Of a stretch of DNA of 45,375 nucleotides, positions 2,834 through 23,633 are shown piece by piece; within the stretch, counting starts at the first letter, position 1; each line of letters begins with the position of its first letter. A program made the translations under genes and the position numbers. This stretch comes from Candidatus Hikarchaeia archaeon HikBin5. GTDB taxonomy: Archaea; Halobacteriota; Halobacteria; Halobacteriales; Hikarchaeaceae. Where the stretch lies: positions 1-45,375 of the forward strand of contig WTZU01000009.1 of the NCBI GenBank assembly GCA_009889625.1, given 5' to 3'. Below the pieces are notes generated by a model that was given only the letters and a program-made list of their open reading frames with translations, was not told the DNA's origin and made no database searches.

Positions 2834-2836
2834 CTA

Positions 2837-4501: not shown

Positions 4502-4507
4502 GAAAAT

Positions 4508-6367
4508 CTAATCGTGGGGATGGAATATTTTTATTGCGGTTTTTACATCTTCTTTTCTTCCGATCAAAGTCAGTCGGTCCTCGAGATCTAGGATAAAATC
4601 GCCATGTGGAATGATATCTTCATCTTCGCGTTTGACTAGTGTGATTAAACAGCTAGGAGGCAAGATTGATGCGAGGGACCCAACAGTTTTTCCAACAAAT
4701 TGAGAGGAAGTTAATGTTATTTCTTGAACATCTCCAGATACACCTAATTCAGTCATCCATGCGTTTAATGCAGGGCGTTCTATGAGATTGTCAATCGCGA
4801 GTGCGGTTGCATGAGAAGAGGATATTGCAACTACACCTAAGTCTTCAAATTGAGGTAGATTATCAGGATTATTAACTCTAGCAAATATTGATTCGATGCC
4901 GAATTCATTTTTGGCGAGTTGGCATACTAGAAGGTTATTACCATCATCCCCAGTGGCTGCGATTAAGATTTTTGCATTTGATGACTTTGCTTGTTCTAAG
5001 GTCTTTTTAAGAGTCCCATCTCCAAACAATACGGAAAATCCAGTAGAAGAAAGAGATTCTATTTGAGATTCGTTTTGTTCAATTATCAAAACACTTTCGC
5101 CGCGTTCGGAAAGGCGGGAAGAGAGGGAACGCCCGACTCTTCCACCTCCAATGATTATTACACGCATAGGTATCACATTTAAATATTCTGCTATATATCT
5201 AGAAAAGCCAGCTTCTAATGAAACTGTTGTGAAAATAACCAAGAATACAGTTCCAACCAATACATTAGCTTCGCGGGTGAATCCAACTGATTGTAGATGT
5301 ATGGCAAATAACATAGATATTGATGCAGGGATGATTCCACGGGGGGCAACTGCCATCATAAATATTTTTTCGGCAAAGGTGAATCTATTTCCAGTTACTG
5401 AAACATAAACTGATAAAGACCTAACTAGCAGCATTATCAAAACTACAACCAATACGCCAGACAAGCCTAGAGACAATAGAATGTTCATGTCTAATAACGC
5501 TGCCAGAATTATAAAAATAAAGGACAGAACTAGAAGGGTTATGTCGCCTTTAAACTCAGAAACTTCTCGCTCATAAGAAATTGAAGAATTTCCCAATAAA
5601 AGTCCAGCTGATGCTGCAGCAACTATCCCAGATTCCGGGGTGATGGAATTTGAAATTGCAAAGGATGCAATAGCTATCGTTAAAACTAATAACCTAGTTA
5701 ATTGAGGGGCATTTGAAGGGGGTATAAAAGATAATTTTAAGAAATTCAATAGGACATACCCACTTCCTAAACCGACTAACAATCCAACGCCAAACTTGAG
5801 AAGGAAAATTGGAAAGAGGTCGGAGAGACTAGTGGTATTCAACAATATTGCTTCGAAGAAAACAATAGCTAGAATCGCTGCTGTGACATCATTTATAATT
5901 CCTTCAGTTTCAAGGAGTGTTCCCACACGTTCTCTCACATGTACAACTTTTAAAATTGGCATAATAACCGTTGGACCGGTTGCGATTAATAAAGATCCAA
6001 CGAGGAATGAAACTATCCAATCTACATGGAGTAAGTAATGTACAAGTGCAGCAGTCCCTATCAAAGAAATTCCGGCTCCGATAGTTAGAAGTCGTGCAGT
6101 TTCCGAAGGGATTCTAAGAAGTTTAGGTATTCGGATATGAAATGCCCCTTCAAAGATTATTATTGCCACGGAGATTCCAACAATATCGTTTAAAGCAGAA
6201 CCAAATGACATGGGGTTTAAAAGGCCAACTCCATGCGGACCTAGTAAAACGCCGAAAGTGAGAAGAAAAACTACACTAGGTATTGAAAATCTAGCTGCGA
6301 TTAGTTGGGCGATTACACCTGCTACGATTACAATGGAAAAGATAGTAATTAAATTTGATTCGATCAT
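4508..6367 (-). CDS. cation:proton antiporter (NhaP-like CPA1) with C-terminal TrkA-N and TrkA-C domains
   Basis: A 619-residue membrane protein. Residues ~1-395 form about 12 hydrophobic segments with the CPA1 signature around EGIINDVTAAI, where the Asp is the expected ion-binding residue. A Rossmann nucleotide-binding domain follows, starting with VIIIGGGRVGRS (~404). A TrkA-C-like ligand domain makes up the last ~90 residues. It would exchange Na+ (or K+) for protons across the cytoplasmic membrane, with NAD(H) or a nucleotide gating it through the RCK module. The start is ATG 6367. It is convergent with the NAD kinase fusion and upstream-adjacent to the acyl-CoA ligase on the same strand (42 nt gap). 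Ion selectivity cannot be assigned from sequence. Confidence 0.9.
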   Translation of the reverse strand: MIESNLITIFSIVIVAGVIAQLIAARFSIPSVVFLLTFGVLLGPHGVGLLNPMSFGSALNDIVGISVAIIIFEGAFHIRIPKLLRIPSETARLLTIGAGISLIGTAALVHYLLHVDWIVSFLVGSLLIATGPTVIMPILKVVHVRERVGTLLETEGIINDVTAAILAIVFFEAILLNTTSLSDLFPIFLLKFGVGLLVGLGSGYVLLNFLKLSFIPPSNAPQLTRLLVLTIAIASFAISNSITPESGIVAAASAGLLLGNSSISYEREVSEFKGDITLLVLSFIFIILAALLDMNILLSLGLSGVLVVVLIMLLVRSLSVYVSVTGNRFTFAEKIFMMAVAPRGIIPASISMLFAIHLQSVGFTREANVLVGTVFLVIFTTVSLEAGFSRYIAEYLNVIPMRVIIIGGGRVGRSLSSRLSERGESVLIIEQNESQIESLSSTGFSVLFGDGTLKKTLEQAKSSNAKILIAATGDDGNNLLVCQLAKNEFGIESIFARVNNPDNLPQFEDLGVVAISSSHATALAIDNLIERPALNAWMTELGVSGDVQEITLTSSQFVGKTVGSLASILPPSCLITLVKREDEDIIPHGDFILDLEDRLTLIGRKEDVKTAIKIFHPHD

Positions 6368-6409
6368 GGCAGAGGTGGAAGGACTTTGTATAAAATAGAA
6401 AGGTCGTGT

Positions 6410-8317
6410 CTAAGAATAAATACTTTCGATCTCTTTTTTATATTTATTCAATATATTTCTTCTTTTCTTTTTCAAAGATGGCGTCAATAAGTCATTATCT
6501 TCTGTAAATTCTTCGGTTATGATGCGGAAATCTTTGATTTGTTCGTGTGGTTCGAAATTAGAATTTATTTCATCCACGATTGTAGAGAAATTGTCTATCA
6601 CTTTTTGATCTTTATGTAGATCTGATAAAGGTGCAGATGGGTCGCCCATCCAAGATTGCAAGGCCTCGGTGTTTGGAACTAACAGGGCGCTTATGAATTT
6701 CTTTTCATCTCCAACTACAATGCTTTGTTCTATTAATTCATGTTGGGTTAGTGCATCTTCAAGTGGTGTTGGTGCCACGTTTTTTCCCGTTGAGAGCACC
6801 ATTATTTCTTTGATACGTTCTAAAAATGTCACATATCCATCTGATTCTAATAATACCAAATCCCCTGTTTTAAACCAATCATCATCAAAGGATTCTTTTG
6901 TTTCTTTTGGTTTATTCCAATAACCGGAGAAAATACTCGGTCCACGAACAAGGAGTTCACCAATTTCGCCTGTGTTAGAAAGTTTAGATCCATCATGTGG
7001 GACGGGTTTTATTTTAACTTCGAGATTGGATAAAGGAGGTCCAACGGAGCCTATACGGGGAGAATCAGGATGGTTAACAGTGATAACAGGTGACGTTTCG
7101 GACAGCCCATATCCTTCCAAAACAAGAATTCCAGCCCCATGATATAATGCACATAAATCTTTAGAAAGTTTGCCCCCGCCACTGATTAAAAATTGTATGT
7201 TACCACCGAGGGCGCTTTTAACTTTAGAGTAAACAAGGCGGTTGGCGATGCGATGTTTAATGGAGAGAATGGGATTGATCGTGGAAGAATATGCCTTTTG
7301 TCTAGCTACCTTAACCGCCCAATTGAAAATGCGTAGCTTTATTGGAGATTCAGAGGCCTGGTCTCGCATTGCAACATACATTTTTTCATATACACGGGGG
7401 ACACTGGCCCCCGCGGTTGGACGGACCTGGAGAAAGTCTTCTTTGAGTGTATCAGGGCTCTCTGCATATGCAATAGTCGCGCCGCTTTGGAGCATTAAAA
7501 AATGTCCTGCCATACGTTCCAAGATATGAGATAGTGGTAAAAAGGAGAGAATGCGGGTAGAACTATCAAGAGTGGGGGAGTTTTGTTTTCCCTCACGCGG
7601 ACCGAATCTCAATTGGGAATAGTCAACATTGGATTTTATATTTAAATGAGTGAGCATAACCCCTTTTGGGTCGCCTGTTGTTCCAGAAGTATAAACAAGA
7701 GTTGCTAGATCTTCAGGAGATTGGGAATCTATCCAAGAGTTATATTTAGAAGGTGTAAATGTTTCTTTTCCAGAAATGTAGACTTCAGAGAGGGTAGAAA
7801 CATTCTTTGGTTGGTTTGAAGATAAATTATCCATACTGACTATAAATTTGAGGGATTTGGATGCTTTTGTTTCTAATACTTTGTTAACCAATCCTTCATT
7901 TTCGGCTATGATCCCAATAGATTTTGAATCAGAAAGTAAATAATCAATCATGGAAGGAGAGGAATTTGGATAGATAGTAACTGTGACGCCCCCTGCAGAG
8001 AGAATTGCTAGATCGGACTGGGCCCATTCCATCCTAGTATTTGAAAATATTGCAACTTTACTACCTTTCCGGAGGCCTATATTGCGCAAACCCGTTGCCA
8101 CATATTGAACAATTGAATTTAATGTGGCATAGTCTAGTGTGGCAAATTCACCCGGATTTGCAGGAGGGAATGCGGTTTTGGATAAACTTCTATCATACAC
8201 CCCTCCCTTATACATTTGTGCAGGCAAATCACCGTGTAATTTTGCGGTTTCTTCAAACATTTTTGACAGTGTAGACTCCCCAATTAGAGTTCCTTTTCCT
8301 ATATCTTTCCAACTCAT
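6410..8317 (-). CDS. long-chain acyl-CoA synthetase (AMP-forming ligase)
   Basis: A 635-residue adenylate-forming enzyme of the FadD/ACSL type that activates fatty acids to acyl-CoA through an acyl-AMP. It shows the P-loop-like motif VYTSGTTGDPKGV (~209), the adenine-binding LEGYGLSETSP (~400), the hinge region with WFKTGDL, and the C-terminal lysine region LSTGKNVAP typical of long-chain ligases. The length matches ACSL-type enzymes (600-660), which are longer than acetyl-CoA synthetase-like ligases without the long-chain insertions. It is divergent from the MFS transporter (99 bp). With the thiolase it suggests fatty-acid catabolism; lipid synthesis is the alternative. Confidence 0.92.
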   Translation of the reverse strand: MSWKDIGKGTLIGESTLSKMFEETAKLHGDLPAQMYKGGVYDRSLSKTAFPPANPGEFATLDYATLNSIVQYVATGLRNIGLRKGSKVAIFSNTRMEWAQSDLAILSAGGVTVTIYPNSSPSMIDYLLSDSKSIGIIAENEGLVNKVLETKASKSLKFIVSMDNLSSNQPKNVSTLSEVYISGKETFTPSKYNSWIDSQSPEDLATLVYTSGTTGDPKGVMLTHLNIKSNVDYSQLRFGPREGKQNSPTLDSSTRILSFLPLSHILERMAGHFLMLQSGATIAYAESPDTLKEDFLQVRPTAGASVPRVYEKMYVAMRDQASESPIKLRIFNWAVKVARQKAYSSTINPILSIKHRIANRLVYSKVKSALGGNIQFLISGGGKLSKDLCALYHGAGILVLEGYGLSETSPVITVNHPDSPRIGSVGPPLSNLEVKIKPVPHDGSKLSNTGEIGELLVRGPSIFSGYWNKPKETKESFDDDWFKTGDLVLLESDGYVTFLERIKEIMVLSTGKNVAPTPLEDALTQHELIEQSIVVGDEKKFISALLVPNTEALQSWMGDPSAPLSDLHKDQKVIDNFSTIVDEINSNFEPHEQIKDFRIITEEFTEDNDLLTPSLKKKRRNILNKYKKEIESIYS

Positions 8318-8416
8318 AGTGAGAGAAGATTATGGTCCACATGACATGAATCTTACCCTAAAACTAAATAATAGGTAATCTAAATTGGATATAGAAATAA
8401 TAAAAAGGGTACAATA

Positions 8417-9643
8417 ATGGATAATTCTAGGAAAATAGACAAAATATTTGGGGAATATCGAGGGCAGATGTTGTTGCTTGTTGCCATGGGATGGGCAATA
8501 ACCCAAACTGGCCGTTTCTTACTACCGCCACTATTACCGATAATAATGGAAGAGGTTAAAATATCAGTAGTGATTGCGGGAGTGGTATTGACGATTATGC
8601 AAGTCGTATATGCTATTACTCAATACCCAAGTGGGAAAATATCAGATTGGGTTGGTAGGCCAATTATTATCATTCCAGGAATGGGTTTGATAGGGTTGAG
8701 TTTTTTCTTCATTGCAGGAATAAAAACTGCATTTATGTTAATATTTGCAGTGGTATTACTAGGGTTGGGAAGAGCCATGTATAATGTTCCTTCGAGGGCA
8801 TTGATTTCCGATTTGTATGTAGGAAGGAGAGGAAGGGCTATGGGGATATTCACAGCTGGGAGCGACCTAGGTGGAATTTTTGCGGGTTTACTTTCAATTG
8901 TCTTGGCAATGGCATATTTGGTATTGGTAGAAGGCATTCCAAATTGGAGGGTTGTTGTTGGTTTTTGTGGAATTGTTAGTTTTTTCTTGATAGGGGCATT
9001 CATCCTAGTAAATCAAGAAGGATATGGTAGGGGTGAAAAAAGTGGGGAGGGTATAAAATCCTCGGTTAAAAAAGATATCATATACATAGTGGGAGAAAGG
9101 AGCCAGAGGGAGACTGTATTGGCTTTTGCTCTATTTATTTTTGTAGCCACTGCGATGGTGAATTTCCTACCGTTGTATCTAATAGAGGGGAAAGGATTCG
9201 ATTTAAGAACTGCGGGGTCAATTTTTGGATGGTTTTTTTTACTAGGAATGGTAGTGAAACCAATAATTGGGGCACTTTCAGATCGTGCTCCAAGGTATTT
9301 AATTTCAATAGGAGGATTACTAGTCAGTATGGGCGGAATTGGGTTTTTATTAGTTTCAGAAACTGTTTTTGGGGTGGTAATTTCCATTGCGATATTTGCG
9401 ATAGGATATAAAGGACAATTTCCAGTTATTGACGCCATTCTAATGGATTCTGCACCAAAAAAATCTACAGGTAGCCACATAGGTGCTGCGAGGAGTATAT
9501 TTTTTACAATAGGAGGCATGGGTGCGGCATACATGGGGTTTGCAATCGAGCATTATGGTTACACAATGGGCATGGTAGGATTGGGGGCAGCATTGTTGGC
9601 AGCATCTATATTGTTAATCCGCAATTATAGAAAGGAAGGGTAA
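8417..9643 (+). CDS. major facilitator superfamily transporter
   Basis: A 408-residue protein with about 12 hydrophobic helices and the MFS inter-helix signature at YPSGKISDWVGRP between helices 2 and 3. A related motif, GALSDRAPR, lies in the second half. It would be a secondary transporter in the cytoplasmic membrane; the substrate is unknown and no family-specific residue helps. The start is ATG 8417, preceded by an AT-rich stretch at 8385-8401 that could hold the TATA box. It faces the acyl-CoA ligase gene divergently, so a carboxylate substrate is possible but only by association. It converges on the MBL hydrolase gene. Confidence 0.88.
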   Translation: MDNSRKIDKIFGEYRGQMLLLVAMGWAITQTGRFLLPPLLPIIMEEVKISVVIAGVVLTIMQVVYAITQYPSGKISDWVGRPIIIIPGMGLIGLSFFFIAGIKTAFMLIFAVVLLGLGRAMYNVPSRALISDLYVGRRGRAMGIFTAGSDLGGIFAGLLSIVLAMAYLVLVEGIPNWRVVVGFCGIVSFFLIGAFILVNQEGYGRGEKSGEGIKSSVKKDIIYIVGERSQRETVLAFALFIFVATAMVNFLPLYLIEGKGFDLRTAGSIFGWFFLLGMVVKPIIGALSDRAPRYLISIGGLLVSMGGIGFLLVSETVFGVVISIAIFAIGYKGQFPVIDAILMDSAPKKSTGSHIGAARSIFFTIGGMGAAYMGFAIEHYGYTMGMVGLGAALLAASILLIRNYRKEG

Positions 9644-9685
9644 GTAAAAGAAAAATTATTTTGGAGAAATGGGAGTTCCAATTTT

Positions 9686-10333
9686 TTAAGAAGAAGGGGG
9701 CTTGCCTGGGAAATTAACATACCTATCTAATTTAGAATGGGCATTTTCCAATACATTTGATCCATGGAACAGTAATGCTGCATTGAAATCGTATTGGAGT
9801 ATTTTTTCTAGAGTCTCTTCTGCTTGGTTTAAGTCAACTGTATGGACGGCAGGAGGTAAATGGAATTCCCCCGCGGGGAGGCCGCGTTGATCCGCCCCAG
9901 AAATTGCATCTCCAGGTATGATTATTTTTGCCTTTTCATCGATTAATCCGTAATTATCATTTTTATGCCCAGGCAAATATATTGTTTTAAATCTACCAAT
10001 TTGTTCACCCTCTTGGTAGCGGTGATCGGGTTTATGTTTAGAAGGGAAATTAGATTCGGCAGGCGCCCAGGTCTCTACATTATAAGTGTCAACTAAAGTA
10101 TCAAAAGCACCTACATGGTCGCCGTCACCATGTGTAATTATCAACCTACCGGGAGTGAGTCCGGTTTCTTCAATACCTTTAAGTAAAGCATCGGTTGTAT
10201 CCCCACGGGCGCAATCAATTAAAGTGGGGACATCGTCGTCGAATAGGTATGCTCGATATCTGTTATTTCCTTCAGCCACTAGACAGGTGATATCATAAAC
10301 ACCTGGGAAAATTTCTTCAATGGTCATATACAT
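9686..10333 (-). CDS. metallo-beta-lactamase-fold hydrolase
   Basis: An MBL-fold protein of about 215 residues. The metal site motif is THGDGDHVGAFD, a variant of THxHxDHxG in which the second histidine is Asp; Asp/His ligands later in the chain include LPGHKND and PGDAISG. The family includes glyoxalase II-like thioesterases, lactonases and persulfide dioxygenases, and the substrate cannot be chosen here. A TTG at 10348 would add five residues, but ATG 10333 (MYMTIEEIFPG) or ATG 10327 is a better N-terminus. It is divergent from the cupin gene. Confidence 0.85.
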   Translation of the reverse strand: MYMTIEEIFPGVYDITCLVAEGNNRYRAYLFDDDVPTLIDCARGDTTDALLKGIEETGLTPGRLIITHGDGDHVGAFDTLVDTYNVETWAPAESNFPSKHKPDHRYQEGEQIGRFKTIYLPGHKNDNYGLIDEKAKIIIPGDAISGADQRGLPAGEFHLPPAVHTVDLNQAEETLEKILQYDFNAALLFHGSNVLENAHSKLDRYVNFPGKPPSS

Positions 10334-10421
10334 TAAGTTTTGTGCCAAGAGTAATGATAGTTATCTTTTGGTCAATCCTGAAAGAAGTTTATTTTAAGTG
10401 AGTGGGAAAGCATTGTGAAAT

Positions 10422-10790
10422 ATGGGAGATTATAAAATATCATCAATTGAAGAGCAGAATAGGACGAAATCTAAGTTCACAGAGGCATTTACTGTGGGAT
10501 TAACTGATGAATTGGAATTAAAAAGTATGAGAGGTAAATTTTGGTTTGTTCCTCCTGGTGAAGAGATAGTGGCGCATAAACATAAGGTCCAAGAGGAAAT
10601 ATATTATCAAATAAGAGGCCCAGGTAAAATGTTGTTTGGAGAAAATAAAGAAGAAATTGTTGAAATTCCAGAAGGGTCCATAGTTAGCGTCCCCCCTGAA
10701 ACTTGGAGACAAGTGATAAACGATACAAGTAAAGAGCATATTTGGCTCATAGTAGGGGCACCTCCGGTAGAAAAGGATGGAGTTCATTAG
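10422..10790 (+). CDS. small cupin-domain protein
   Basis: A 122-residue single-domain cupin. The first cupin motif is visible as the HKHKVQEEIYYQIRGPG region with two His and a Glu, and the second as IPEGSIVSVPPETWRQVIND, where the usual second-motif His is replaced (ETWRQ). One metal ligand may therefore be absent or different. Such stand-alone cupins act as isomerases, dioxygenases or ligand sensors; no function can be assigned. ATG 10422 has an AT-rich TATA-like stretch (TTTATTTTAAG) about 25-34 nt upstream. It converges on the oap operon. Confidence 0.85.
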   Translation: MGDYKISSIEEQNRTKSKFTEAFTVGLTDELELKSMRGKFWFVPPGEEIVAHKHKVQEEIYYQIRGPGKMLFGENKEEIVEIPEGSIVSVPPETWRQVINDTSKEHIWLIVGAPPVEKDGVH

Positions 10791-10811
10791 TTAAATAAAA
10801 TGGTCAGAGAA

Positions 10812-11210
10812 TTAGAGATACCCAGGGACTTGGATAACATAATGTCCATCTTCTTGGATTGCTATAATACATTCGTCCCGATTGTATAATTCCATTAAAT
10901 TGAGTTCATATTGCCCAGGTTCAAGAATTTTAATACTTTCAAATTGGGTACTGAGTTCTGTTTGGAGTTTCTCTATGTATTCGGGGTCGGGTGGATTTGG
11001 TGGGGTATATTGATAGTTTAAATTTAAATTTTTTGGTGGAGTTGAATCTTCTATTGGTGCTTCGATAATGGGAGAATTGATAAATAATTCAGGATTGGAA
11101 TTGGCAGGAATGAATTGGAATTTTTTACCCCCACACTCAGTGCATCCAGCAAGCATTTTTTTAGAACCATCTGAAAAAAGCTCGCCGCAACTAGTACATT
11201 GATGGGGCAT
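10812..11210 (-). CDS. oapC: zinc-ribbon protein, OapC-like
   Basis: A 132-residue protein with an N-terminal zinc ribbon, cysteines at 5, 8, 23 and 26 (CTSC and CTEC), then a proline-rich linker (about 60-80) and a C-terminal segment including ELNLMELYNRDECIIAIQEDG. It is the last gene of a three-gene operon, its ATG overlapping the stop of the upstream gene. In haloarchaea the genes beside orc1 and the main origin were named origin-associated proteins A, B and C, and C is a zinc-ribbon protein; position and architecture match. It appears short for an OapC as I remember that family. Function unknown. Confidence 0.8.
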   Translation of the reverse strand: MPHQCTSCGELFSDGSKKMLAGCTECGGKKFQFIPANSNPELFINSPIIEAPIEDSTPPKNLNLNYQYTPPNPPDPEYIEKLQTELSTQFESIKILEPGQYELNLMELYNRDECIIAIQEDGHYVIQVPGYL

Positions 11211-11599
11211 TAGTTAGGAGATATGAAAGTTGTCATCAACTTATCATCTTTATGTAATGTTTCAATTCGGTTTGCAGGTCCGATAACAGTTAATTTAGAT
11301 GGAAGTTTACGCCCCATTAATTTATTAATAAAAGTGGAACCACCAACTGTAGATTGAAGGTGTGTTTCAATTTCAATTCCTGTGAATCCATCTGGATGAA
11401 TTTCAGACATGGTTATTTCAATAAGTTTTGATTCTTCATCGGGTGAAAGGCCCGTTTCGAGAATAACAATTTTATCATTCCTAACTCCATCTAAAATCAT
11501 TCTAATTTTTTCCATTGTTGTTAGTTCTGCCATTTTTTGGCTACTAATTAGATCGATTTGTATTCCATTTTTTTGTTTTAATTTTTGCATTTTAATCAC
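11210..11599 (-). CDS. oapB: DUF2073 family protein, OapB-like
   Basis: A 129-residue protein matching the DUF2073 family in my recollection of its C-terminal motif, here LTVIGPANRIETLHKDD. The chosen start is GTG 11599, overlapping the upstream stop as GTGA, a typical translational-coupling junction; ATG 11590 (MQKLKQK) is the alternative. It is the middle gene of oapA-oapB-oapC. In haloarchaea OapB is a conserved origin neighbour; a direct replication role has not been settled to my knowledge. No enzyme motif is visible. Confidence 0.85.
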   Translation of the reverse strand: MIKMQKLKQKNGIQIDLISSQKMAELTTMEKIRMILDGVRNDKIVILETGLSPDEESKLIEITMSEIHPDGFTGIEIETHLQSTVGGSTFINKLMGRKLPSKLTVIGPANRIETLHKDDKLMTTFISPN

Positions 11600-12240
11600 C
11601 CGAAATAATCCGCTATTTTATCATATACTTCATCCATATTTTCCCCTTCAAGGGCAGATAGTGGGACGGTTTTGTGTTGAGGGAATGATTCTTTTATCAA
11701 AGTTGGATTTGATTTTTTCAAATCAATTTTATTAGCAAAGATTAGAACAGGGAGCTTCCTACTTTCTATAATACCAATCAACATTGTGTTCACTTGGGTG
11801 AATGGATCTTGTGTAGAATCCAATACATAAATAACCCCATCAATGTCTTCACGTAGCCAATGCATTGCTTCCGCAACGCCCTCGGTCGCTTCCCTTGATC
11901 GGCGTATTGCGTCTTTTTTAGACATTCCAAAATCTAAGAATTCACGATAATCAATTTTTGTAGTCACACCAGGTGTATCTACAATGTCAATAGTAACTAC
12001 TTTGCCATTACGTTCGATCTCTATATTTTCTTTTCTTCGTGCCCTACGTGTTTCGTGGGGTATTTTACTCTCGGCCCCAACGATATCACCAGTCCAGTCA
12101 CGTACTATACGATTTGCAAGTGTAGTTTTTCCTGCATTTGGGGGGCCATATATTCCAATACGCTTTGGTTTAGACCCAGAAAAAAGTTTATCTGTCACTC
12201 GCGAAATGCTATTTCTAAGTTGTTTTAGTAAACCCATCAT
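11596..12240 (-). CDS. oapA: Era-like GTPase, OapA-like
   Basis: A 214-residue small GTPase with G1 GPPNAGKT (32-39), G3 DTPG (~92), G4 NKID (~170) and a G5-like SAL. G1 is the Era/Obg-like form. No KH or other RNA-binding domain follows, so it is a bare G domain with a ~25-residue basic N-terminal tail. It is first in the operon oapA-oapB-oapC and divergently faces orc1 across the replication origin, the conserved haloarchaeal arrangement. Its role may be in sensing or membrane/ribosome processes coupled to growth; this is unproven. Two consecutive ATGs (12240 and 12237) are possible starts. Confidence 0.88.
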   Translation of the reverse strand: MMGLLKQLRNSISRVTDKLFSGSKPKRIGIYGPPNAGKTTLANRIVRDWTGDIVGAESKIPHETRRARRKENIEIERNGKVVTIDIVDTPGVTTKIDYREFLDFGMSKKDAIRRSREATEGVAEAMHWLREDIDGVIYVLDSTQDPFTQVNTMLIGIIESRKLPVLIFANKIDLKKSNPTLIKESFPQHKTVPLSALEGENMDEVYDKIADYFG

Positions 12241-12261
12241 TTACATTGCCTCACAGATGAA

Positions 12262-12282
12262 ACCAAATTTATCATATTTGGT
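12262..12282. repeat. perfect inverted repeat in the oapA upstream region
   Basis: ACCAAAT and ATTTGGT form 7-bp arms around a 7-nt AT-rich loop, 22-42 bp upstream of the oapA start. An AT-rich TATA-like stretch sits just beyond it (about 12290-12300). The dyad could be an operator overlapping the transcription start, or an accidental palindrome in AT-rich DNA. Confidence 0.4.
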
Positions 12283-12370
12283 ATCTTCTCATCTATATCT
12301 TAAATCCTCGGTCCAATCACTTAAACTTATGTCAGACGTTTGTCAGCCATTTAATTAGATGTTTATAGTT

Positions 12371-12392
12371 ACCCCTTTATTTCCAGTGGAAT
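12371..12392 (-). promoter_or_regulatory. origin recognition box 1 (left, reversed)
   Basis: Read on the minus strand it is ATTCCACTGGAAATAAAGGG followed by GT: the dyad TTCCACTGGAA followed by the asymmetric G-string that gives Orc1/Cdc6 its orientation. It points away from orc1 and is inverted relative to box 2, with about 194 bp between dyad centres. Confidence 0.8.
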
Positions 12393-12469
12393 CTCATTTT
12401 TAAAAATTTTCACGTGAAGAAAAAATATTTTTGTTTTATTTCTCATTTTTTATGATAAATTTAAATATT

Positions 12470-12495
12470 AATTTCACGTTTTTATTTGTGAAATT
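12470..12495. repeat. inverted repeat inside the AT-rich origin core
   Basis: AATTTCAC and GTGAAATT make perfect 8-bp arms separated by 10 nt. TTCACG also occurs at 12409-12418 as a perfect palindrome (TTCACGTGAA), so the same half-site is repeated within the core. It could be a protein-binding element of the unwinding region. Confidence 0.45.
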
Positions 12496-12573
12496 TTTAT
12501 CTTATATAGACGTTGAAGATTATAAATATTTCTTTAAAAAAAACTAATAAATAAATAATTTTTAGTATACAAA

Positions 12574-12601
12574 ATTCCACTGGAAACTAAGGGGGGTGGG
12601 G
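12574..12601 (+). promoter_or_regulatory. origin recognition box 2 (right, long G-string)
   Basis: The plus strand reads ATTCCACTGGAAACTAAG and continues with GGGGGTGGGG. The dyad matches box 1 and the extended G-string makes this the strongest Orc1-binding candidate. It is oriented toward orc1. Confidence 0.82.
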
Positions 12602-12607
12602 TAACAT

Positions 12608-12618
12608 TTCCACTGGAA
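12608..12618. promoter_or_regulatory. origin recognition box core without G-string
   Basis: TTCCACTGGAA repeats the dyad 33 bp from the centre of box 2, but neither side carries a G-string of its own. It resembles a mini-ORB. It could extend Orc1 binding from box 2. Confidence 0.6.
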
Positions 12619-12796
12619 TTTTTTTAAACTTTGTTTTTAAAAAATATTTACGTCTATTATATGTATTATTTTTGTAAATTTTTGTTGTATTTTTATATTT
12701 TTATATTTATATTAATTGAAAATTTAAAGAAACCTTTATTTCAATTGGAGATTTACGAAGACATTACCTATAATTTATAACAAACGAGGCAAAAAT

Positions 12797-14245
12797 ATGG
12801 AAGACATCTCTAAAAATAACATCCAATCCATTTCAAACACATCTACTAATCTTTCTCATCATAATAGTTTGTTCGAAAGTTTACTCAATGTAGAGCCAAT
12901 TTTTAATAACAAAGAACTTTTACGACACTCATTTACTCCCGAGACATTACCACATCGGGATTCTCAAATTAAAACTTTAGCTAGTATTTTAGTGGCCGCC
13001 CTACGTGGAGATACTCCTTCTAATATTCTTATCTATGGAAAAACAGGAACTGGTAAAACAGCAAGTGTTAGATATGTTAGCCGCGAACTAGAACAAACTT
13101 CTACACAATATGAAATTCCATGTGATGTTAAATTTATCAATTGTGAAGTGGTTGATACCAAATACAGAATTTTAGCAGAATTGGCCAATACATTTATAGA
13201 AAAAAATATAGATTATATCTTGGAAAAAATTTCTCTACTTGAAGCTTCACAAAATAACCAAACATTAGAATCTAATTCACAACATAATTTTTTAACCAAC
13301 CCAGTACCCACTCACGTGGATGAAATCTCTAAATTAAAAAAAGATCTAAATTCCTTCACAAAAGTACCTATGACTGGGTGGCCCACCGACACGGTGTATA
13401 CCACCCTCCTCCGTGCAATTGATTACCGGGAACGTGTTGTTGTTATCATTTTAGATGAGATAGACAAACTTGTAGAGAAAAGTGGAGATGATATCCTTTA
13501 TAATTTATCTCGTATGAATTCTGATCTGGATCAATCACGAGTTTCTATTAAAGGAATCTCAAATGATTTAACTTTCACTGATTATCTCGACCCCCGTGTA
13601 AAATCTTCATTGGGTGAAGAAGAGATCATTTTTCCTCCTTATAATGCCAACCAATTAAATGATATCCTACATAATAGAGCAACAACTGCATTCAAAAAAG
13701 GTGTATTGGAAGATGGTGTGATTAGAATGTGCTCTGCCTTCGCCGCACAGGAACATGGGGACGCTAGACGTGCGTTGGATTTATTACGCACAGCGGGAGA
13801 ATTGGCAGAGCGAGAAGGGGGAAGTCAAGTAACCACTAACCATGTCGAATCAGCGCAAGAAAAAATAGAACTAGATCGTGTTATTGAAGTTATACGAACC
13901 CTCCCCGATCAATCAAAATTTATATTATTTACAATATTAATTTTAGTTAAAAAGAACGTCCCTTACATAACCACTGGTGAGGTGTATAATCTCTACCGCC
14001 AATATTGTAAAGAACGAAATTCTGATGTACTTACTCACCGTCGAGTCACCGATCTAATTTCAGAACTAGATATGTTGGGAATTATAAATGCTATTGTGGT
14101 AAGTAAAGGTAGATATGGTCGGACAAAACAAATCAGTCTATCTGTACCTCAAATTAATATTGAGAAAGAATTATTATCAAACCAACATTTATTTGGGGGA
14201 TTGGAGGACACTTCTATTATTTTCCAAAGTAATCTCACAAATTAA
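12797..14245 (+). CDS. orc1: replication initiator Orc1/Cdc6
   Basis: A 482-residue AAA+ initiator. Walker A YGKTGTGKTASVR is at ~80-92, Walker B VVIILDEIDK at ~214-223, sensor-2 region EHGDARRALDLLRTAGELAE at ~318-337, and a C-terminal winged helix (~390-460) with TGEVYNLYRQYC and RRVTDLISELDMLG. It would bind the adjacent boxes and load MCM. The ATG at 12797 has a GAGG sequence about 10 nt upstream. An insert rich in Asn and Gln between Walker A and B (~147-175) lengthens the protein relative to ~410-residue relatives. The stop overlaps the end of the convergent signal peptidase gene by 4 nt. Confidence 0.96.
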   Translation: MEDISKNNIQSISNTSTNLSHHNSLFESLLNVEPIFNNKELLRHSFTPETLPHRDSQIKTLASILVAALRGDTPSNILIYGKTGTGKTASVRYVSRELEQTSTQYEIPCDVKFINCEVVDTKYRILAELANTFIEKNIDYILEKISLLEASQNNQTLESNSQHNFLTNPVPTHVDEISKLKKDLNSFTKVPMTGWPTDTVYTTLLRAIDYRERVVVIILDEIDKLVEKSGDDILYNLSRMNSDLDQSRVSIKGISNDLTFTDYLDPRVKSSLGEEEIIFPPYNANQLNDILHNRATTAFKKGVLEDGVIRMCSAFAAQEHGDARRALDLLRTAGELAEREGGSQVTTNHVESAQEKIELDRVIEVIRTLPDQSKFILFTILILVKKNVPYITTGEVYNLYRQYCKERNSDVLTHRRVTDLISELDMLGIINAIVVSKGRYGRTKQISLSVPQINIEKELLSNQHLFGGLEDTSIIFQSNLTN

Positions 14246-14847
14246 ATAATTAAATTAATCACTTCATTAACTATTAATTTAATATACCCCATCCAAGGTA
14301 TCCTTATTTCTGCAGTTCCTTTAACCCAAGAAGGTCTGACTGGCCCACTAATCCCATCTGCCTGGTCATAATTTCCATTATTATCCCCCTTTGTGATATA
14401 ACCTGCATGCGGTGATGGGCAGTTGGGCATCATATCACAATTTTTACCAACAACCCATTTTGGGTTTCCTCTATCATACCAATCTTCTCCCTCATCCACC
14501 CAAAATTCAACCCTATGTATAACTGGTAAGTCAGCGCTGCCCTCTGCATTAAATACAATCACATCACCCCTCTCCCCAAACTTATAATAATTTTCCCCCT
14601 CTCTTCTCGTTTTAACATCTTCTATTTTTCCTTCACCCACTTGAACTGCCATGAGAAATACTAAATCGCCCTCTTGTAAATTAGGTTCCATACTCCCACT
14701 CTCAATAGCAACCAATGGTGGCCAAACACCACTAATTCCAAATAATAATCCTCCTATTAATATAACAACAAACAAATCTTTCAATACAACTCTCCCTGCC
14801 CCTCCCTTCACAAATAATTTTATTATTTTATCAACCCATTTATTCAT
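14242..14847 (-). CDS. signal peptidase I, archaeal/ER type (S26B)
   Basis: A 201-residue membrane protease that removes signal peptides outside the cytoplasmic membrane. A transmembrane segment at ~22-42 precedes the nucleophile serine 52 in ESGSMEP. The general base is histidine 111 in PVIHRVEF, the archaeal/eukaryotic Ser-His arrangement rather than bacterial Ser-Lys. A conserved KGDNNGNYD motif follows, and a hydrophobic C-terminal end (IPWMGYIKLIVNEVINLII) forms a second anchor. The gene lies between orc1 and the PolD small subunit, as I recall for haloarchaea. A TATA-like AGTATAAT is 19-26 nt upstream of the ATG, suggesting a short or absent leader. Confidence 0.92.
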   Translation of the reverse strand: MNKWVDKIIKLFVKGGAGRVVLKDLFVVILIGGLLFGISGVWPPLVAIESGSMEPNLQEGDLVFLMAVQVGEGKIEDVKTRREGENYYKFGERGDVIVFNAEGSADLPVIHRVEFWVDEGEDWYDRGNPKWVVGKNCDMMPNCPSPHAGYITKGDNNGNYDQADGISGPVRPSWVKGTAEIRIPWMGYIKLIVNEVINLII

Positions 14848-14865
14848 TTTTAATCTTTACGTTAC

Positions 14866-14873
14866 ATTATACT
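14866..14873 (-). promoter_or_regulatory. putative TATA box of the signal peptidase gene
   Basis: AGTATAAT on the minus strand lies 19-26 nt before the ATG at 14847. Spacing fits a leaderless or near-leaderless transcript. Pattern-based only. Confidence 0.4.
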
Positions 14874-14911
14874 TTCAACCGACCCTACATCAACCTTTCC
14901 GGGCCGTTATG

Positions 14912-14919
14912 TTTTTATT
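14912..14919 (+). promoter_or_regulatory. putative TATA box of the PolD small-subunit gene
   Basis: TTTTTATT lies 25-32 nt before the GTG start at 14944, followed by a C-rich stretch. Spacing fits leaderless transcription. Pattern-based only. Confidence 0.35.
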
Positions 14920-14943
14920 TCCCCCCCCGTTCTCTCCTTCCAC

Positions 14944-16341
14944 GTGCCACCAAAAAATCTCTCTAAAATCATCCATGAACTAATAAAACATGGATACAAT
15001 GCCGAACTTGATGTGGTACAATTCATCAATAATACTCCCAATCCTCTTTCTACAATCCAATTCTTAATTGAAAATGCCCCCGATGGGGTCCTCACTTTCA
15101 ATATGTCCCATATATCTAGTCTCTACCAAAACCCACTCCCAGATCCTTCGATTTTGATAGAAAATGATATGACTGGAAATAGTACTGGATCTGGAACTTA
15201 TAACGACTTTGTTGAAATTTTTCAAGACCGCCTATCTAAACTATCTTCTATTTTATCCAATCGTGTAACTCCTTATCCTTTAAATTCTCTTAAAACTGCA
15301 TCTGGGGATGTAAGGACAATAGGAATGATTTCTGATATCAAAAAAACTACTTCAAACCACATCTTAATAGAACTTGAAGATACTACTGGGGTGTTTTCAA
15401 TATTGGTAAATAATAATAGTGATATTTTCTCTTTAACCGATGAATTACTTTTAGATGAAGTAATCGGTGTTAAAGGAAAACTATCCCCCGATTCCGATCT
15501 ACTCTTCGCCGAATCGATATATTTCCCCGATGTCCCCACCAATTTTAGACCAAAACTTGCCACTAGGTCCGTTCAAGCAGCACTCCTAAGTGACATTCAT
15601 GTGGGGTCTAAACATTTCAGATCCGACCTTTGGTCTGATTTTGCAAAATGGCTTTCAACACCCGAAGCCGAACCCCTTGAATATCTTTTAATCGCGGGCG
15701 ATTTGGTAGAAGGTGTTGGAGTCTATCCTGGGCAAGACACAGACCTTGAAATTATTAATATATATGAACAGTATGAAGCATTCAACGAATGTTTAAAAGA
15801 AATACCTGGGCATATCTCCATCATCATGATCCCTGGAAACCACGACGCGGTTAGGTTGGCAGAGCCGCAACCCGGATTCGATCCTGAAATTAGGAAAATT
15901 TTGTCATCTTCTAAAATTAATTTCACTTCAAACCCCTCCACAGTAACAGTCGAAGGCGTCCCCATCCTCTTGTACCATGGGGTCTCTTTAGACGAAATAA
16001 TAGCAGAGACTCCTTCTCCTCAAGTTAGCTACGAGCAGCCTCATAATGCCATGATACAATTACTCAAAAAAAGACACCTTGCACCTCAATTCGGCTCAAG
16101 AACTAGGATCTCCCCTGAACGCAAAGATTATTTGACCATTGATAAAATTCCCTCCGTGTTTCACTCTGGGCATGTACACAAATTTGGATATGGTAAATAT
16201 CATAATGTATTGGTCATAAATTCTGGCTGCTGGCAATCCCAAACAGATTTTCAAAAACGGGCAAACATAACACCTGATGTTGGATACGCACCAATTTTAG
16301 ATTTAGATACTCTAAACCTCACTATCAGAAAATTTTCATAA
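14944..16341 (+). CDS. polD1: DNA polymerase D small subunit (DP1), 3'-5' exonuclease
   Basis: A 465-residue proofreading subunit of the archaeal replicative polymerase. An N-terminal region (~1-110) is followed by an OB-fold (~120-200) and a calcineurin-like phosphoesterase domain with all metal motifs: LSDIHVG (~216), GDLVEG (~255), PGNHDAV (~297), YHGVS (~342) and GHVHKFG (~408). An active Mre11-like nuclease is therefore expected. The start is GTG 14944 (MPPKNLSK). Its partner, the large subunit, is encoded at 31.2-34.7 kb. It is divergent from signal peptidase and followed after 74 nt by aspartate kinase. Confidence 0.95.
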   Translation: MPPKNLSKIIHELIKHGYNAELDVVQFINNTPNPLSTIQFLIENAPDGVLTFNMSHISSLYQNPLPDPSILIENDMTGNSTGSGTYNDFVEIFQDRLSKLSSILSNRVTPYPLNSLKTASGDVRTIGMISDIKKTTSNHILIELEDTTGVFSILVNNNSDIFSLTDELLLDEVIGVKGKLSPDSDLLFAESIYFPDVPTNFRPKLATRSVQAALLSDIHVGSKHFRSDLWSDFAKWLSTPEAEPLEYLLIAGDLVEGVGVYPGQDTDLEIINIYEQYEAFNECLKEIPGHISIIMIPGNHDAVRLAEPQPGFDPEIRKILSSSKINFTSNPSTVTVEGVPILLYHGVSLDEIIAETPSPQVSYEQPHNAMIQLLKKRHLAPQFGSRTRISPERKDYLTIDKIPSVFHSGHVHKFGYGKYHNVLVINSGCWQSQTDFQKRANITPDVGYAPILDLDTLNLTIRKFS

Positions 16342-16415
16342 TTTTAATTAATATTACCCCTTTCAGGCCCAAGCCGAATGATTCAAGTCCCTCGAACTTC
16401 CCTGATGGTTGTATA

Positions 16416-17603
16416 GTGCGTGTAGTTGTAAAATTTGGAGGAACCAGCGTTGGAACTGGCGATCGAATTGAACGGGCAGCTGGTTCTATAGCAAAATTAG
16501 TTGAAGATGGTCATGAAGCAATTGTAGTCGTAAGTGCAATGGGATCTACCACTGATGATCTATTCAACCAGATTACATTTGAAGTGACTCCTTCCGACCA
16601 AGCAGAAATAGTCAGTATGGGCGAGCGTACTTCTGTAAGAATGTTAAAAGCTGCATTGACTTCTTATGGTATCAATTCTATTTTTTTAGAACCACAACGC
16701 CCCCAATGGCCAATTATCCTTGATGAAGATGGAATAGTGTCTGTTGAAGAAACTACATCTAGATCTTCTAAATTACAAAAAATTCTTTCTGACACAGTCC
16801 CTGTGGTAACTGGATTCTTAGCCGAAGACATTGATGGTAATGTGACCACTCTCGGACGTGGAGGAAGTGACACCACCGCAGTAATGCTAGGCCATTACCT
16901 ACAAGCGGATGAGGTTGTCATTGTAACAGATGTTTCTGGTGTTATGACAGGTGATCCAAACGCCGTCGAAGGTGCAATGAATGTTGGAAAGATTAGTGTG
17001 GATGAATTACGTAGCCTGTCTTTTCGAGGGGCTGAAGTAATAGCACCTTCTGCACTTTCTTATAAAACTGATAAATTTGGCCTCCGTGTTCTCCATTACC
17101 AAAATGATGGTCTCCTCACTGGAGGAACCGACGTCACTGGAAAATTCCAAAATTTAATTGACATGAGAGAACGGGCAGTAACCGGCGTCACTGTGGCAGG
17201 AAGGGCTGTTAGAAATACCCCCCATATCTTAAAAGATTTATCTGTCATTTTGGGAAATTCAAATGTTAATATCCAAGCCGTCTCAAGTGGGCTCGATAGT
17301 ATCACTTTTTATGTTGACAATTCAGACGGAAAAAATGTTGAATCCATTCTACACACAGCGGTAATTGATATCCCTGCCCTTTCTAGTGTAACTGCTGAAT
17401 CTCCCATCGCAGTGATTCGAATTTCCGGGGGTGTGGTAACCGATCAAACTAGTGTTTTGATGGATCTTTTAGTTAGCCTATCTGAGAACAAAATCCAACT
17501 TAATGATTTAATTACAAGTGCAACTTCTATAGGTGTTTTTGTTAACTGGAATCAACGCAAAGAAGCCCTCACTGTGGTGCAAAAATTATTCGAAAGTAAC
17601 TAG
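16416..17603 (+). CDS. aspartate kinase
   Basis: A 395-residue amino-acid kinase that phosphorylates aspartate, the first step toward lysine, threonine, methionine and isoleucine. The N-terminal signature KFGGTSVG (~6-13) and the nucleotide motif TTLGRGGSDTTAVMLG (~144) are intact. The last ~130 residues hold two ACT-type regulatory segments (around SVILGNSNVNIQAVSSG and VLMDLLVSLSENKIQL), so feedback control by an amino acid is likely. The start is GTG 16416; the only nearby upstream ATG runs into a stop. No homoserine dehydrogenase is fused or adjacent. Confidence 0.93.
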   Translation: MRVVVKFGGTSVGTGDRIERAAGSIAKLVEDGHEAIVVVSAMGSTTDDLFNQITFEVTPSDQAEIVSMGERTSVRMLKAALTSYGINSIFLEPQRPQWPIILDEDGIVSVEETTSRSSKLQKILSDTVPVVTGFLAEDIDGNVTTLGRGGSDTTAVMLGHYLQADEVVIVTDVSGVMTGDPNAVEGAMNVGKISVDELRSLSFRGAEVIAPSALSYKTDKFGLRVLHYQNDGLLTGGTDVTGKFQNLIDMRERAVTGVTVAGRAVRNTPHILKDLSVILGNSNVNIQAVSSGLDSITFYVDNSDGKNVESILHTAVIDIPALSSVTAESPIAVIRISGGVVTDQTSVLMDLLVSLSENKIQLNDLITSATSIGVFVNWNQRKEALTVVQKLFESN

Positions 17604-17614
17604 CTATTTTACCT

Positions 17615-18181
17615 TTATCTATTATCTAAACAAAATTCTATTGGATTTCCTTTCTTCATTCCCACTGCGCATATGGCGTTTTCAAACCCATTCCCATACA
17701 TAAATTCAATTACCTCTCCTGCAGTATTTGGTCTGCAATCAACTATCTCTGGACTATTCTTTCCATACGTTGCAACCAACATGGGATTTTTTACTTCACT
17801 CACTACGATCCCCTCTACTTTAACAATCCCAATGAATGATTTTTCTCCTACGATACCTGCAATTCTTGGGGTATTGTATTCATCCCTCTCATACCCCATC
17901 TCTTCCAATCCACTTTTCAATGCCCCATTTGGATCTCCTCCTTCCACAAACTCCTCCGCTATCAAATCCACATGATCTCCATTTCCTATTACCACCCAAT
18001 CCCCTTCCCTTCTCACACAATTATATGCCACGTATGGGTTATCTGTATGTTCTGCATCTGGTCTGAGCTCTATGCTTATGCGATCCCCCCTCTGCACAAC
18101 ACACCTATCGGGAAACGAACGTGAACAGACACAATAGCCACAAAAATCCCCTCCAATAACAAGAAAACGCCCAATATACAT
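17615..18181 (-). CDS. purO: archaeal IMP cyclohydrolase PurO
   Basis: A 188-residue protein beginning MYIGRFLVIGG with SRSFPDR soon after, the hallmark of the archaeal-only IMP cyclohydrolase that closes FAICAR to IMP in the last step of purine synthesis. Other conserved stretches are DNPYVAYNC, VIGNGDHVD and TPRIAGIV. I prefer ATG 18181; a TTG nine bases further upstream would add three residues. The fold is unrelated to bacterial PurH, as known for this family. It is convergent with aspartate kinase (11 nt) and divergent from the tRNA-Gln gene. Confidence 0.88.
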   Translation of the reverse strand: MYIGRFLVIGGDFCGYCVCSRSFPDRCVVQRGDRISIELRPDAEHTDNPYVAYNCVRREGDWVVIGNGDHVDLIAEEFVEGGDPNGALKSGLEEMGYERDEYNTPRIAGIVGEKSFIGIVKVEGIVVSEVKNPMLVATYGKNSPEIVDCRPNTAGEVIEFMYGNGFENAICAVGMKKGNPIEFCLDNR

Positions 18182-18245
18182 ATATCTCAATCATTTTGGT
18201 TACTGCATGTATGTATCGATTTTTTTCCACATTCTCAACAAAAAA

Positions 18246-18253
18246 CTTTAAAC
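18246..18253 (+). promoter_or_regulatory. TATA box of tRNA-Gln
   Basis: CTTTAAAC lies 28-35 nt upstream of the mature tRNA 5' end, a good archaeal box-A spacing. Little else lies between it and the gene. Confidence 0.5.
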
Positions 18254-18280
18254 ATTAACCAGAACCAAAACATTCTGTCT

Positions 18281-18353
18281 AGTCCCATGGGGTAGTGGCC
18301 AATCCTATCGCGTTCTGGGCGCGACGACCCTGGTTCGAATCCGGGTGGGACTA
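18281..18353 (+). tRNA. tRNA-Gln (CTG anticodon)
   Basis: A full cloverleaf: acceptor AGTCCCA paired with TGGGACT, discriminator A, anticodon stem TCGCG/CGCGA, loop TTCTGGG with anticodon CTG (Gln), and a T-arm with GGTTCGAATCC. No intron and no encoded CCA. The AGTCCC acceptor start is what I recall of haloarchaeal tRNA-Gln. Confidence 0.93.
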
Positions 18354-18415
18354 TCTCAATTCAAATTTATCCTTGCATCGGCAAGTTAATAGATTGCCCA
18401 TCGAATTATACAAGC

Positions 18416-19822
18416 ATGTCTGTAGATTTAGTTATCAAAAACGGCTTAATTCATACTCCAGATAATAGCTACAAAGCCAACATAGCAATTAAAGACGGTG
18501 TCATTGTGCACATTGGGTCATCTGCCACGACGCCCCCTTCCACAGAAACAATTGATGCTTCTGGCAAATCGATTTTACCAGGGCTGATCAATCAACATGT
18601 CCATTTTCGAGAACCTGGTCAAACACACAAGGAAGATTTTGAAAAAGGATCTCAAGCAGTTGCAGCAGGGGGATATACAATGTACATGGACATGCCAAAT
18701 TGCACCCCTATAACAAACACACTCGAAAAGTATATGGATAAATGTGAATTGGCATCTGAAAAATCTCTAATTGACCATAATAGCTGGGCCGGCGCAACCG
18801 ACCCCGAAGAAGTTATTAATATATACCAAAATAGTGGGAATTTGGGTTTCAAAATATTCATGCACCGCCACCCAGAGGTTGAATACCCCTATGTCCCTGA
18901 ATTAGCCGTCTATGAAACAGATAGGCTTTATTCCATCTTTGATTCTATCGCAAAACTAGATAGAAACATACCCATCTCTTTACATCCCTCTGATGTCCCT
19001 TTAGCAGACGAATTATACTATCGACTTCGTGATATGGGGGCAGATGATTATTCCGCCTTGCGAGAAGGAAAAGATGGTATGAATATGACCCTCGGGTGTT
19101 TCGAAGCAGCATTCCTTGCGCACATTACTGGATTAAAACATCTCAACATACTTCACTTAGGATTTAATGAAATCACGCCAAATCCCCATTTAGATTTTGC
19201 AAATCGGGTCACGCTTGTCGATCTGGTGAGAAAGTTAAAGAGTTGGGGCTGGGATCTCCACGGAGAGGCAGAAGCATCTACATTTTTACAACGCGACCCA
19301 GAGATCAGTTGGAAACGAAGGTGGTACACCCCCGATCATGAAAAACTTTGGGAAGCATTAGACGATGAGGTTTTTGACCTAATGTTGATTGAACACGCAC
19401 CACAATTAGAAGAAGAAGCAAACAAACCCGACGTATGGGATGCCGCATCAGGGCTATTGGGTGCACAAGATTTCTTGCCTCTTATGCTCACCGAAGTTAA
19501 CAATGGCCGACTTTCTATCAATAAACTAGTCAAAATGACTTCTAAAAACCCAGCAGAATTTTTAGGAATCTACCCCAAAAAAGGAGCAATCCAAGTTGGA
19601 TCTGATGCCGACATAACCATCGTGGATCTAACCCGGGAATCTGTTATAGATGAATCCAAAACATTTGCAAAGGCGGGATGGTCTAGTTTTGATGGTTATG
19701 ATGTTACCGGTGTGCCTACTCAGACAATTGTCAGAGGGACTATTGTGTACGATGAAGGTGAAATAACTGCAGATCCTGGATATGGGAAATACATCGATAA
19801 AAAAGAATACCGAGATTTTTAA
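18416..19822 (+). CDS. cyclic amidohydrolase of the dihydroorotase/allantoinase-hydantoinase family
   Basis: A 468-residue amidohydrolase. The first metal motif HVHFREPGQTHKEDFEKG (~61-78) is typical of dihydroorotases. GFKIFMH (~142) places a lysine where hydantoinases and allantoinases carry the carboxylated metal bridge. Later ligand histidines are probably in ISLHPSD and NILHLG. The catalytic Asp of the usual DHAPH motif is replaced by Glu (IEHAPQ, ~325). The tail NPAEFLGIYPKKGAIQVGSDADITIVDL is the family's C-terminal signature. Pyrimidine biosynthesis (PyrC) is the default reading, but the residue pattern leaves allantoinase or hydantoinase open. No pyr genes are adjacent; tRNA-Gln lies just upstream. 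Confidence 0.8.
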   Translation: MSVDLVIKNGLIHTPDNSYKANIAIKDGVIVHIGSSATTPPSTETIDASGKSILPGLINQHVHFREPGQTHKEDFEKGSQAVAAGGYTMYMDMPNCTPITNTLEKYMDKCELASEKSLIDHNSWAGATDPEEVINIYQNSGNLGFKIFMHRHPEVEYPYVPELAVYETDRLYSIFDSIAKLDRNIPISLHPSDVPLADELYYRLRDMGADDYSALREGKDGMNMTLGCFEAAFLAHITGLKHLNILHLGFNEITPNPHLDFANRVTLVDLVRKLKSWGWDLHGEAEASTFLQRDPEISWKRRWYTPDHEKLWEALDDEVFDLMLIEHAPQLEEEANKPDVWDAASGLLGAQDFLPLMLTEVNNGRLSINKLVKMTSKNPAEFLGIYPKKGAIQVGSDADITIVDLTRESVIDESKTFAKAGWSSFDGYDVTGVPTQTIVRGTIVYDEGEITADPGYGKYIDKKEYRDF

Positions 19823-19825
19823 TTT

Positions 19826-20737: not shown

Positions 20738-20804
20738 TCTTAATTATTATAACTCCTGTCCCTTGTTAAAACAATCGCTATTCTTATATCGTTATTCTAG
20801 AAAT

Positions 20805-20812
20805 AATATAAT
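20805..20812 (+). promoter_or_regulatory. putative TATA box of the 96-residue protein gene
   Basis: AATATAAT lies 20-27 nt upstream of ATG 20832, consistent with a leaderless transcript. This supports starting translation at 20832 rather than further upstream. Confidence 0.4.
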
Positions 20813-20831
20813 TTTTATTCACCCCCTCTCA

Positions 20832-21122: not shown

Positions 21123-21130
21123 TTTTTTCT

Positions 21131-22117: not shown

Positions 22118-22206
22118 ACTAATAAGAGAGTTATGTTGGAATTAAGTCCATTGTTCTTTATTACTACAATGGTCTATGTCCAAAACGTCAATTGTTGATA
22201 ATAAGG

Positions 22207-23502: not shown

Positions 23503-23633
23503 CCTATAATCCCTCGAACATTAAATTCAATTTCAATTAATATTTAAGATATATTAAACATTACTTTGGTTCTGCCTAATCTTTAAAATTAAATATTTTC
23601 GGCTCACATGTGCTTACAATAGCAAAAATAAAA

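Follow-up and report, generated by a model that had tools for sequence, protein, structure and literature searches.

We analysed a 45,375-nucleotide contig, called the window below at its full length, from a 1.07-Mb metagenome-assembled genome (MAG) of the Hikarchaeia, or Marine Group IV, which comprises 36 contigs and is 70.5% complete (G000 below). At 12 to 14 kb an Orc1/Cdc6 initiator gene adjoins an AT-rich spacer with inverted origin recognition box (ORB) elements, the arrangement of an oriC1-type archaeal origin, and close to this locus the plus strand passes from an excess of G over C to an excess of C over G. The features concerned are the following, with G001 and G003 denoting two further Hikarchaeia genomes.

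1..12144, plus strand: left arm, plus strand (probably lagging here) richer in G than in C, from fourfold and intergenic skew and the change point
12145..45375, plus strand: right arm, plus strand (probably leading here) richer in C than in G, from fourfold and intergenic skew
12241..12796, no strand: intergenic AT-rich putative replication origin of oriC1 type, beside orc1, with ORB boxes and blocks conserved in three Hikarchaeia genomes
12380..12391, plus strand: ORB core TTTCCAGTGGAA, exact match, conserved in G001 and G003 apart from one or two changes
12575..12600, plus strand: ORB core followed by a G-run, TTCCACTGGAAACTAAGGGGGGTGGG, core and G-run kept in G001 and G003
12607..12618, plus strand: ORB core TTTCCACTGGAA in inverted orientation to the neighbouring core (arms 12571-12586 and 12607-12622), flank conserved
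12797..14245, plus strand: Orc1/Cdc6 initiator gene (NF001625, 606.7 bits, E 1.8e-182; Pfam Cdc6_C and Cdc6_lid)

The three ORB cores lie inside 240 bp of AT-rich spacer and are kept in three related genomes (G000, G001 and G003), whose DNA is 77-83% identical. The window as a whole shows no enrichment of 12-mers that match the ORB core at two or fewer mismatches (16 against 11.6 expected); the six with no or one mismatch fall at three places, all in the origin spacer. From these sequence features we infer that the orc1/ORB locus is probably an active origin. Named relatives of the window's Cdc6, from one scan, occur in the Marine Group IV MAG HikBin4 (84% identity) and the Halobacteriales MAG ALOHA_A2.5_47 (81%).

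The first-pass annotation of the window had described a G excess left of the origin and a C excess right of it, shared by genes of both strands and opposite to the usual direction. All ten 60-base row counts quoted for this, including the two exceptions (15661-15720 and 5041-5100), proved exact on recount. Left of position 12,300, G exceeds C in 147 of 205 rows (C exceeds G in 50, with 8 equal), and to the right C exceeds G in 418 of 551 (G exceeds C in 108, with 25 equal); skews at fourfold sites and in intergenic DNA agree. The cumulative GC skew, for which a maximum near 11.6-13 kb had been expected, peaks at 11,450 and then declines to a minimum at 45,199. With only fourfold-degenerate sites and intergenic bases, we obtained a single change point at 12,145 (2-log-unit support 11,441-12,244) with a gain of 113.9 log units, a strength reached by none of 2000 permutations of 1.5-kb blocks (best 72.8 log units). 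Between the right end of the support interval and the first ORB box (12,380) lie about 0.1 kb, and the two left-side genes adjoining the origin are weakly skewed at fourfold sites (11210-11599, +0.25; 11596-12240, +0.04).

We then divided the arms at 12,500 and measured plus-strand skew by gene strand. Fourfold sites gave +0.217 in plus genes and +0.445 in minus genes of the left arm, against -0.382 and -0.313 in the right arm, and intergenic DNA gave +0.216 and -0.160, respectively. The sign is independent of gene strand and is seen in silent and non-coding sites alike, as in a replichore skew. Bacteria canonically have a G-rich leading strand (PMC12999951); in the window the predicted origin lies instead where the cumulative skew of third positions and non-coding DNA is at its maximum, a sign opposite to that of bacteria. 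The earlier interpretation of a conserved archaeal-type origin with a gene-strand-independent skew of reversed sign therefore stands, except that the sign is not unprecedented, having been published for haloarchaea, the sister group (PMC2841640, citing Norais 2007; PMC12999951).

To see how far this skew extends, we regressed per-gene fourfold skew on arm (r) and coding strand (t) in 41 genomes, in most cases with genes up to 20 kb from orc1 in each direction. The Hikarchaeia lineage is uncultured and marine, with 39% G+C, and the source MAG fits the published size and composition (about 1.2 Mb, 41% G+C; PMC7599335). Four Hikarchaeia genomes, G000, G001, G002 and G003, were compared (completeness of the four 70.5, 71, 78 and 58%). 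All three that hold the locus have strongly negative r, namely -0.345 (G000), -0.457 (G001) and -0.419 (G003), with every interval below zero; the G002 assembly contains only distant Cdc6 matches. Among haloarchaea, by which we mean the remaining members of the same order in the genome collection, r was -0.227 in one genome of 46% G+C (G012) and ranged from -0.079 to +0.049 (mean -0.026) in the other 17. It was negative in 15 of the 18 (sign test p 0.0075), its interval lying below zero in seven and above zero in none. The Hikarchaeia skew is over four times that of 17 of the 18 sampled haloarchaea. In 20 other Halobacteriota r ran from -0.084 to +0.109, with intervals below zero in G063 and G150 and above zero in G152 and G065.

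The pattern also holds away from the origin. Genes of both strands share one sign in all 19 sampled two-strand stretches of G000 (396 kb sampled), and the sign is constant in 5 of 5 sampled stretches of its 144-kb contig C1; in G003 they share it in all 19 testable stretches of 24 examined, the 19 including one (L036) that spans the flip. Over 20 sampled stretches outside the window the skew excess is about 56 per kb. Reported averages are 7-8 per kb for archaea and 23-25 per kb for bacteria (PMC12999951), although these are whole-genome averages and the comparison is approximate. Hikarchaeia thus look like a clear exception, with a signal sufficient to ask which mutations build the skew.

Two readings would remove the need for a reversed replicative asymmetry. 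G-rich coding strands pointing one way on each side of 12 kb could in principle mimic a flip, the more so as the long genes at 31-45 kb in the right arm lie on the minus strand and coding strands are G-rich at first codon positions. Gene orientation is not the cause, however, because genes of both strands follow the sign of their arm; the fourfold counts, together with those of intergenic DNA, rule it out, and in the three Hikarchaeia t stays between -0.05 and +0.03 while r lies between -0.35 and -0.46, leaving this reading next to no probability. The other reading concerns which strand is leading. The C-rich strand carries the rRNA operon (two genomes), rpoB (four) and rpl6 (three) in all nine contigs, which come from four genomes, and because of this placement and the conserved origin it is probably the leading strand. 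Several observations weigh on the other side: the nine contigs represent three loci, from genomes that are related, rather than nine trials, only three of the contigs have opposite-strand genes confirming the local sign (-0.156, -0.406 and -0.420), and genes overall favour the C-rich strand weakly (178 of 321, p 0.058). Were the orc1/ORB locus at or near a terminus, with the active origin elsewhere or recently moved, the skew would have its usual sign. Reversed archaeal asymmetries are explained by moved origins in PMC3269017, the substitutions described below become, when viewed from the opposite strand, the A>G and C>T of repair-deficient bacteria (PMC11109965), and the MAG has a second, distant Orc1/Cdc6 paralog on contig C26. 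We nevertheless regard a terminus as very unlikely. ORB cores and G-run are kept in three genomes of 77-83% identity, which argues that the locus is maintained; rRNA, rpoB and rpl6 would all be head-on; and no further flip appeared in the 396 kb sampled, with 672 kb outside the sample. Very probably, then, to judge from the sequence, the window carries an oriC1-type origin and the flip reflects a true asymmetry between replication strands, with C enriched on the leading strand where bacteria enrich G.

A silent change at a two-fold degenerate site is always a transition. In Hikarchaeia, C is the third base of NNY codons in 34.3% of cases in leading-coded genes and 19.8% in lagging-coded genes, and G is the third base of NNR codons in 18.3% and 35.8%, respectively. 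Since two-fold sites thus differ between leading- and lagging-coded genes, transitions are involved. We further estimated substitution rates from four pairs of Hikarchaeia genomes, assuming stationarity and taking the mean of co-directional and head-on genes; a block labelled intergenic contains rRNA genes and was excluded from the conclusions. On the leading strand, T>C exceeds A>G by factors of 2.39, 1.60, 1.76 and 1.73, with all intervals above 1, a strand-biased A:T to G:C transition of 1.6-2.4-fold. Under stationarity, gain of C on the leading strand outweighs loss of G. We consider it likely that the asymmetry consists mostly of a leading-strand excess of T->C over A->G; this make-up together with the reversed replicative skew is still favoured, if less firmly than either part alone.

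This direction is that of mismatch-repair-deficient human cells, which likewise show strand-biased A:T to G:C transitions (PMC6130095, PMC10639081), although for Hikarchaeia it comes from species differences under stationarity and not from mutation lines. In leading-strand terms the human direction is T>C and G>A, because the lagging-strand template has the leading-strand sequence. T>C is clearly common to both, whereas the G->A bias in Hikarchaeia is weak or absent and unsupported by polarised counts. Several points weigh against the T->C make-up and its human likeness. The rates depend on the stationarity assumption, and the ratio of G>A to C>T in the four pairs is 0.96, 1.28, 1.14 and 1.34, with only one interval above 1. 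The closest pair, G002-G003 (95-98% identical in shared stretches), covers 21.6 kb, with 12 differences at 163 head-on two-fold sites, so that its narrow interval is unreliable. With G000 as the reference for polarity, its changes in two contig pairs are 46 T>C, 17 A>G, 27 C>T and 6 G>A, with 21 fourfold sites undecided; 27 C>T to 6 G>A is opposite to the human direction for that class, and the 46 to 17 excess of T>C, drawn from highly expressed co-directional genes, may reflect codon selection. Moreover, in co-directional genes of all four pairs, leading-strand fourfold A-C exchanges far outnumber G-T exchanges, with A->C over T->G; this A->C excess is neither predicted by the human pattern nor explicable by transition error.

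Transition mismatches are removed by mismatch repair. MutS1, MutL and NucS were found in none of the four Hikarchaeia genomes, the assemblies being 58-78% complete, and three of the four have a weak MutS-like match of about 570 amino acids. The chance that all four assemblies miss a universally present gene is about 0.8%, as the product of their incompleteness with independence assumed. Of the haloarchaea tested, all five have MutS1 and MutL and four have a NucS match. Loss of uracil repair was considered and rejected, as a uracil-DNA glycosylase match is present in 11 of 11 genomes tested, the four Hikarchaeia among them.

In a lineage devoid of MutS/MutL and NucS mismatch repair, strand-specific misinsertions by the archaeal replisome would become fixed, for example G opposite template T during lagging-strand synthesis or, alternatively, C opposite template A during leading-strand synthesis, and would build up C on the leading strand. 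The archaeal, eukaryote-like replisome would then err in the human direction, and repair loss would let its errors set base composition. That repair loss is the reason for the strength of the skew we propose only tentatively, as a possibility. The comparative data partly disagree. G100, of family f20, which we take to be Archaeoglobi, lacks all three genes, with MutL not found and MutS and NucS each below its cut-off, and shows no skew; G084, G153 and G127 of the same family lack MutL, and r in f20 lies between -0.032 and +0.010. Repair loss as a sufficient cause is thereby rejected: MutL was not found in 4 of 4 f20 genomes, which yet show no skew (MutS and NucS were tested in G100 only). Conversely, G012 has MutS1, MutL and NucS and yet an r of -0.227 with flat two-fold sites. 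Across the 20 outgroups, r is lower in the nine genomes without MutL (six negative, mean -0.015) than in the 11 with it (two negative, mean +0.023; Mann-Whitney p 0.010, Fisher p 0.065, the relatives not being independent). MutL is present in 17 of 18 haloarchaea, whose r is also slightly negative.

Two other sources of a C-rich leading strand have to be set against misinsertion. Damage to single-stranded bases, either cytosine deamination on the leading template or guanine oxidation on the lagging template, would strip G from the leading strand. Single-strand guanine oxidation is discussed in PMC3269017, leading strands are slightly T-rich as well (rTA +0.03 to +0.14), and G>A over C>T exceeds 1 in three of the four pairs; under stationarity, however, the excess is a gain of C by T>C and not a loss of G, and uracil-DNA glycosylase is present in all four Hikarchaeia, so that base damage seems improbable. 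Oxidation as a clade-wide cause (G->T, with an anaerobe-to-aerobe transition) was first considered because leading strands are C- and T-rich, and was dropped, since the two-fold sites of Hikarchaeia argue against it; G012 remains compatible with a transversional cause. A mechanism that all Halobacteriales have inherited, independent of repair loss and showing strongly only where high G+C is not imposed on third positions, deserves more weight, though we find it rather unlikely. It would account for the negative r of 15 of 18 haloarchaea with no interval above zero, for the low-G+C G012 and for the published reversal in haloarchaea (PMC2841640). In G012, however, two-fold sites show no significant difference while fourfold sites do, and the leading strand is strongly T-rich (L041, L042), so its asymmetry is transversional; since two-fold sites are strongly asymmetric in Hikarchaeia, the two do not share one mutation type.

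In NucS-less Streptomyces, A>G on the leading strand is three times T>C and C>T lies above G>A, a pattern reported to match that of E. coli, M. smegmatis and C. glutamicum defective in mismatch repair (PMC11109965). Its A:T to G:C transitions are strand-biased too, but the T->C direction of Hikarchaeia is the reverse. The direction of GC skew might be a readout of replisome type, an idea we hold to be doubtful: when mismatch repair is missing, an archaeal fork would produce leading-strand T->C and a C-rich leading strand, as in repair-deficient human cells, and a bacterial fork A->G and C->T and a G-rich leading strand. If this were true, Hikarchaeia would be a natural long-term mutation line exposing the raw error asymmetry of the archaeal replisome.

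Compared with known systems, Hikarchaeia share with the inverted haloarchaeal skew an origin at the cumulative maximum of third positions and non-coding DNA and an Orc1/Cdc6 origin with ORB and G-run (PMC2841640, PMC12999951), but their skew is far stronger, transition-borne and almost free of a coding-strand effect, in a marine lineage of 39% G+C. Like bacterial skew it has one sign per replichore in both-strand genes and spacers, with a strength of bacterial order or above, whereas its sign is opposite and it arises mainly from T->C gain rather than cytosine loss. Reversed sign is shared with the archaeal asymmetries ascribed to moved origins, eight of 16 archaeal genomes with significant bias being called inversed (PMC3269017); those are expected to fade, whereas the Hikarchaeia skew is strong and accompanies the same conserved origin across genomes of 77-83% identity. 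Our search of the open literature found no report on GC skew in Marine Group IV and no paper combining Haloferax volcanii, mutation accumulation, leading strand and transitions; the term GC skew is absent from PMC7599335 and PMC10873845. We consider new here the strength of the skew, its transition make-up and its resemblance to eukaryotic repair-deficient asymmetry. Two open questions become testable, namely the cause of the reversed haloarchaeal skew and whether skew sign follows the replication machine, and origin finders that seek a skew minimum would misplace the Hikarchaeia origin.

Further genes of the window are the following:

10812..11210, minus strand: OapC, origin-associated protein (PF09845, E 1.8e-28)
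11210..11599, minus strand: OapB, origin-associated protein (PF09846, E 1.4e-36)
11596..12240, minus strand: small GTPase gene beside the origin (PF01926, E 4.6e-14)
14944..16341, plus strand: PolD small subunit (NF003116, 675.2 bits)
31205..34693, minus strand: PolD large subunit (PF24844, PF24846, PF03833)
43059..45170, minus strand: MCM helicase (PF00493, E 3.7e-93)

The small GTPase gene, possibly OapA, is oriented opposite to orc1/cdc6, as are oapB and oapC; the PolD small subunit lies downstream of orc1/cdc6. Four replication genes, orc1/cdc6, both PolD subunits and MCM, fall within 33 kb (12797-45170). The G-string of the ORB has been called halophile-specific (PMC3528665); an ORB with a G-run (12575-12600) occurs here in a marine lineage, and the G-run may predate hypersaline life. 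At its start the contig carries a tRNA-Phe gene (1-74), and it ends inside another tRNA (45319-45375). One reading frame (2837-4501) fuses an NAD kinase part to an inositol monophosphatase part.

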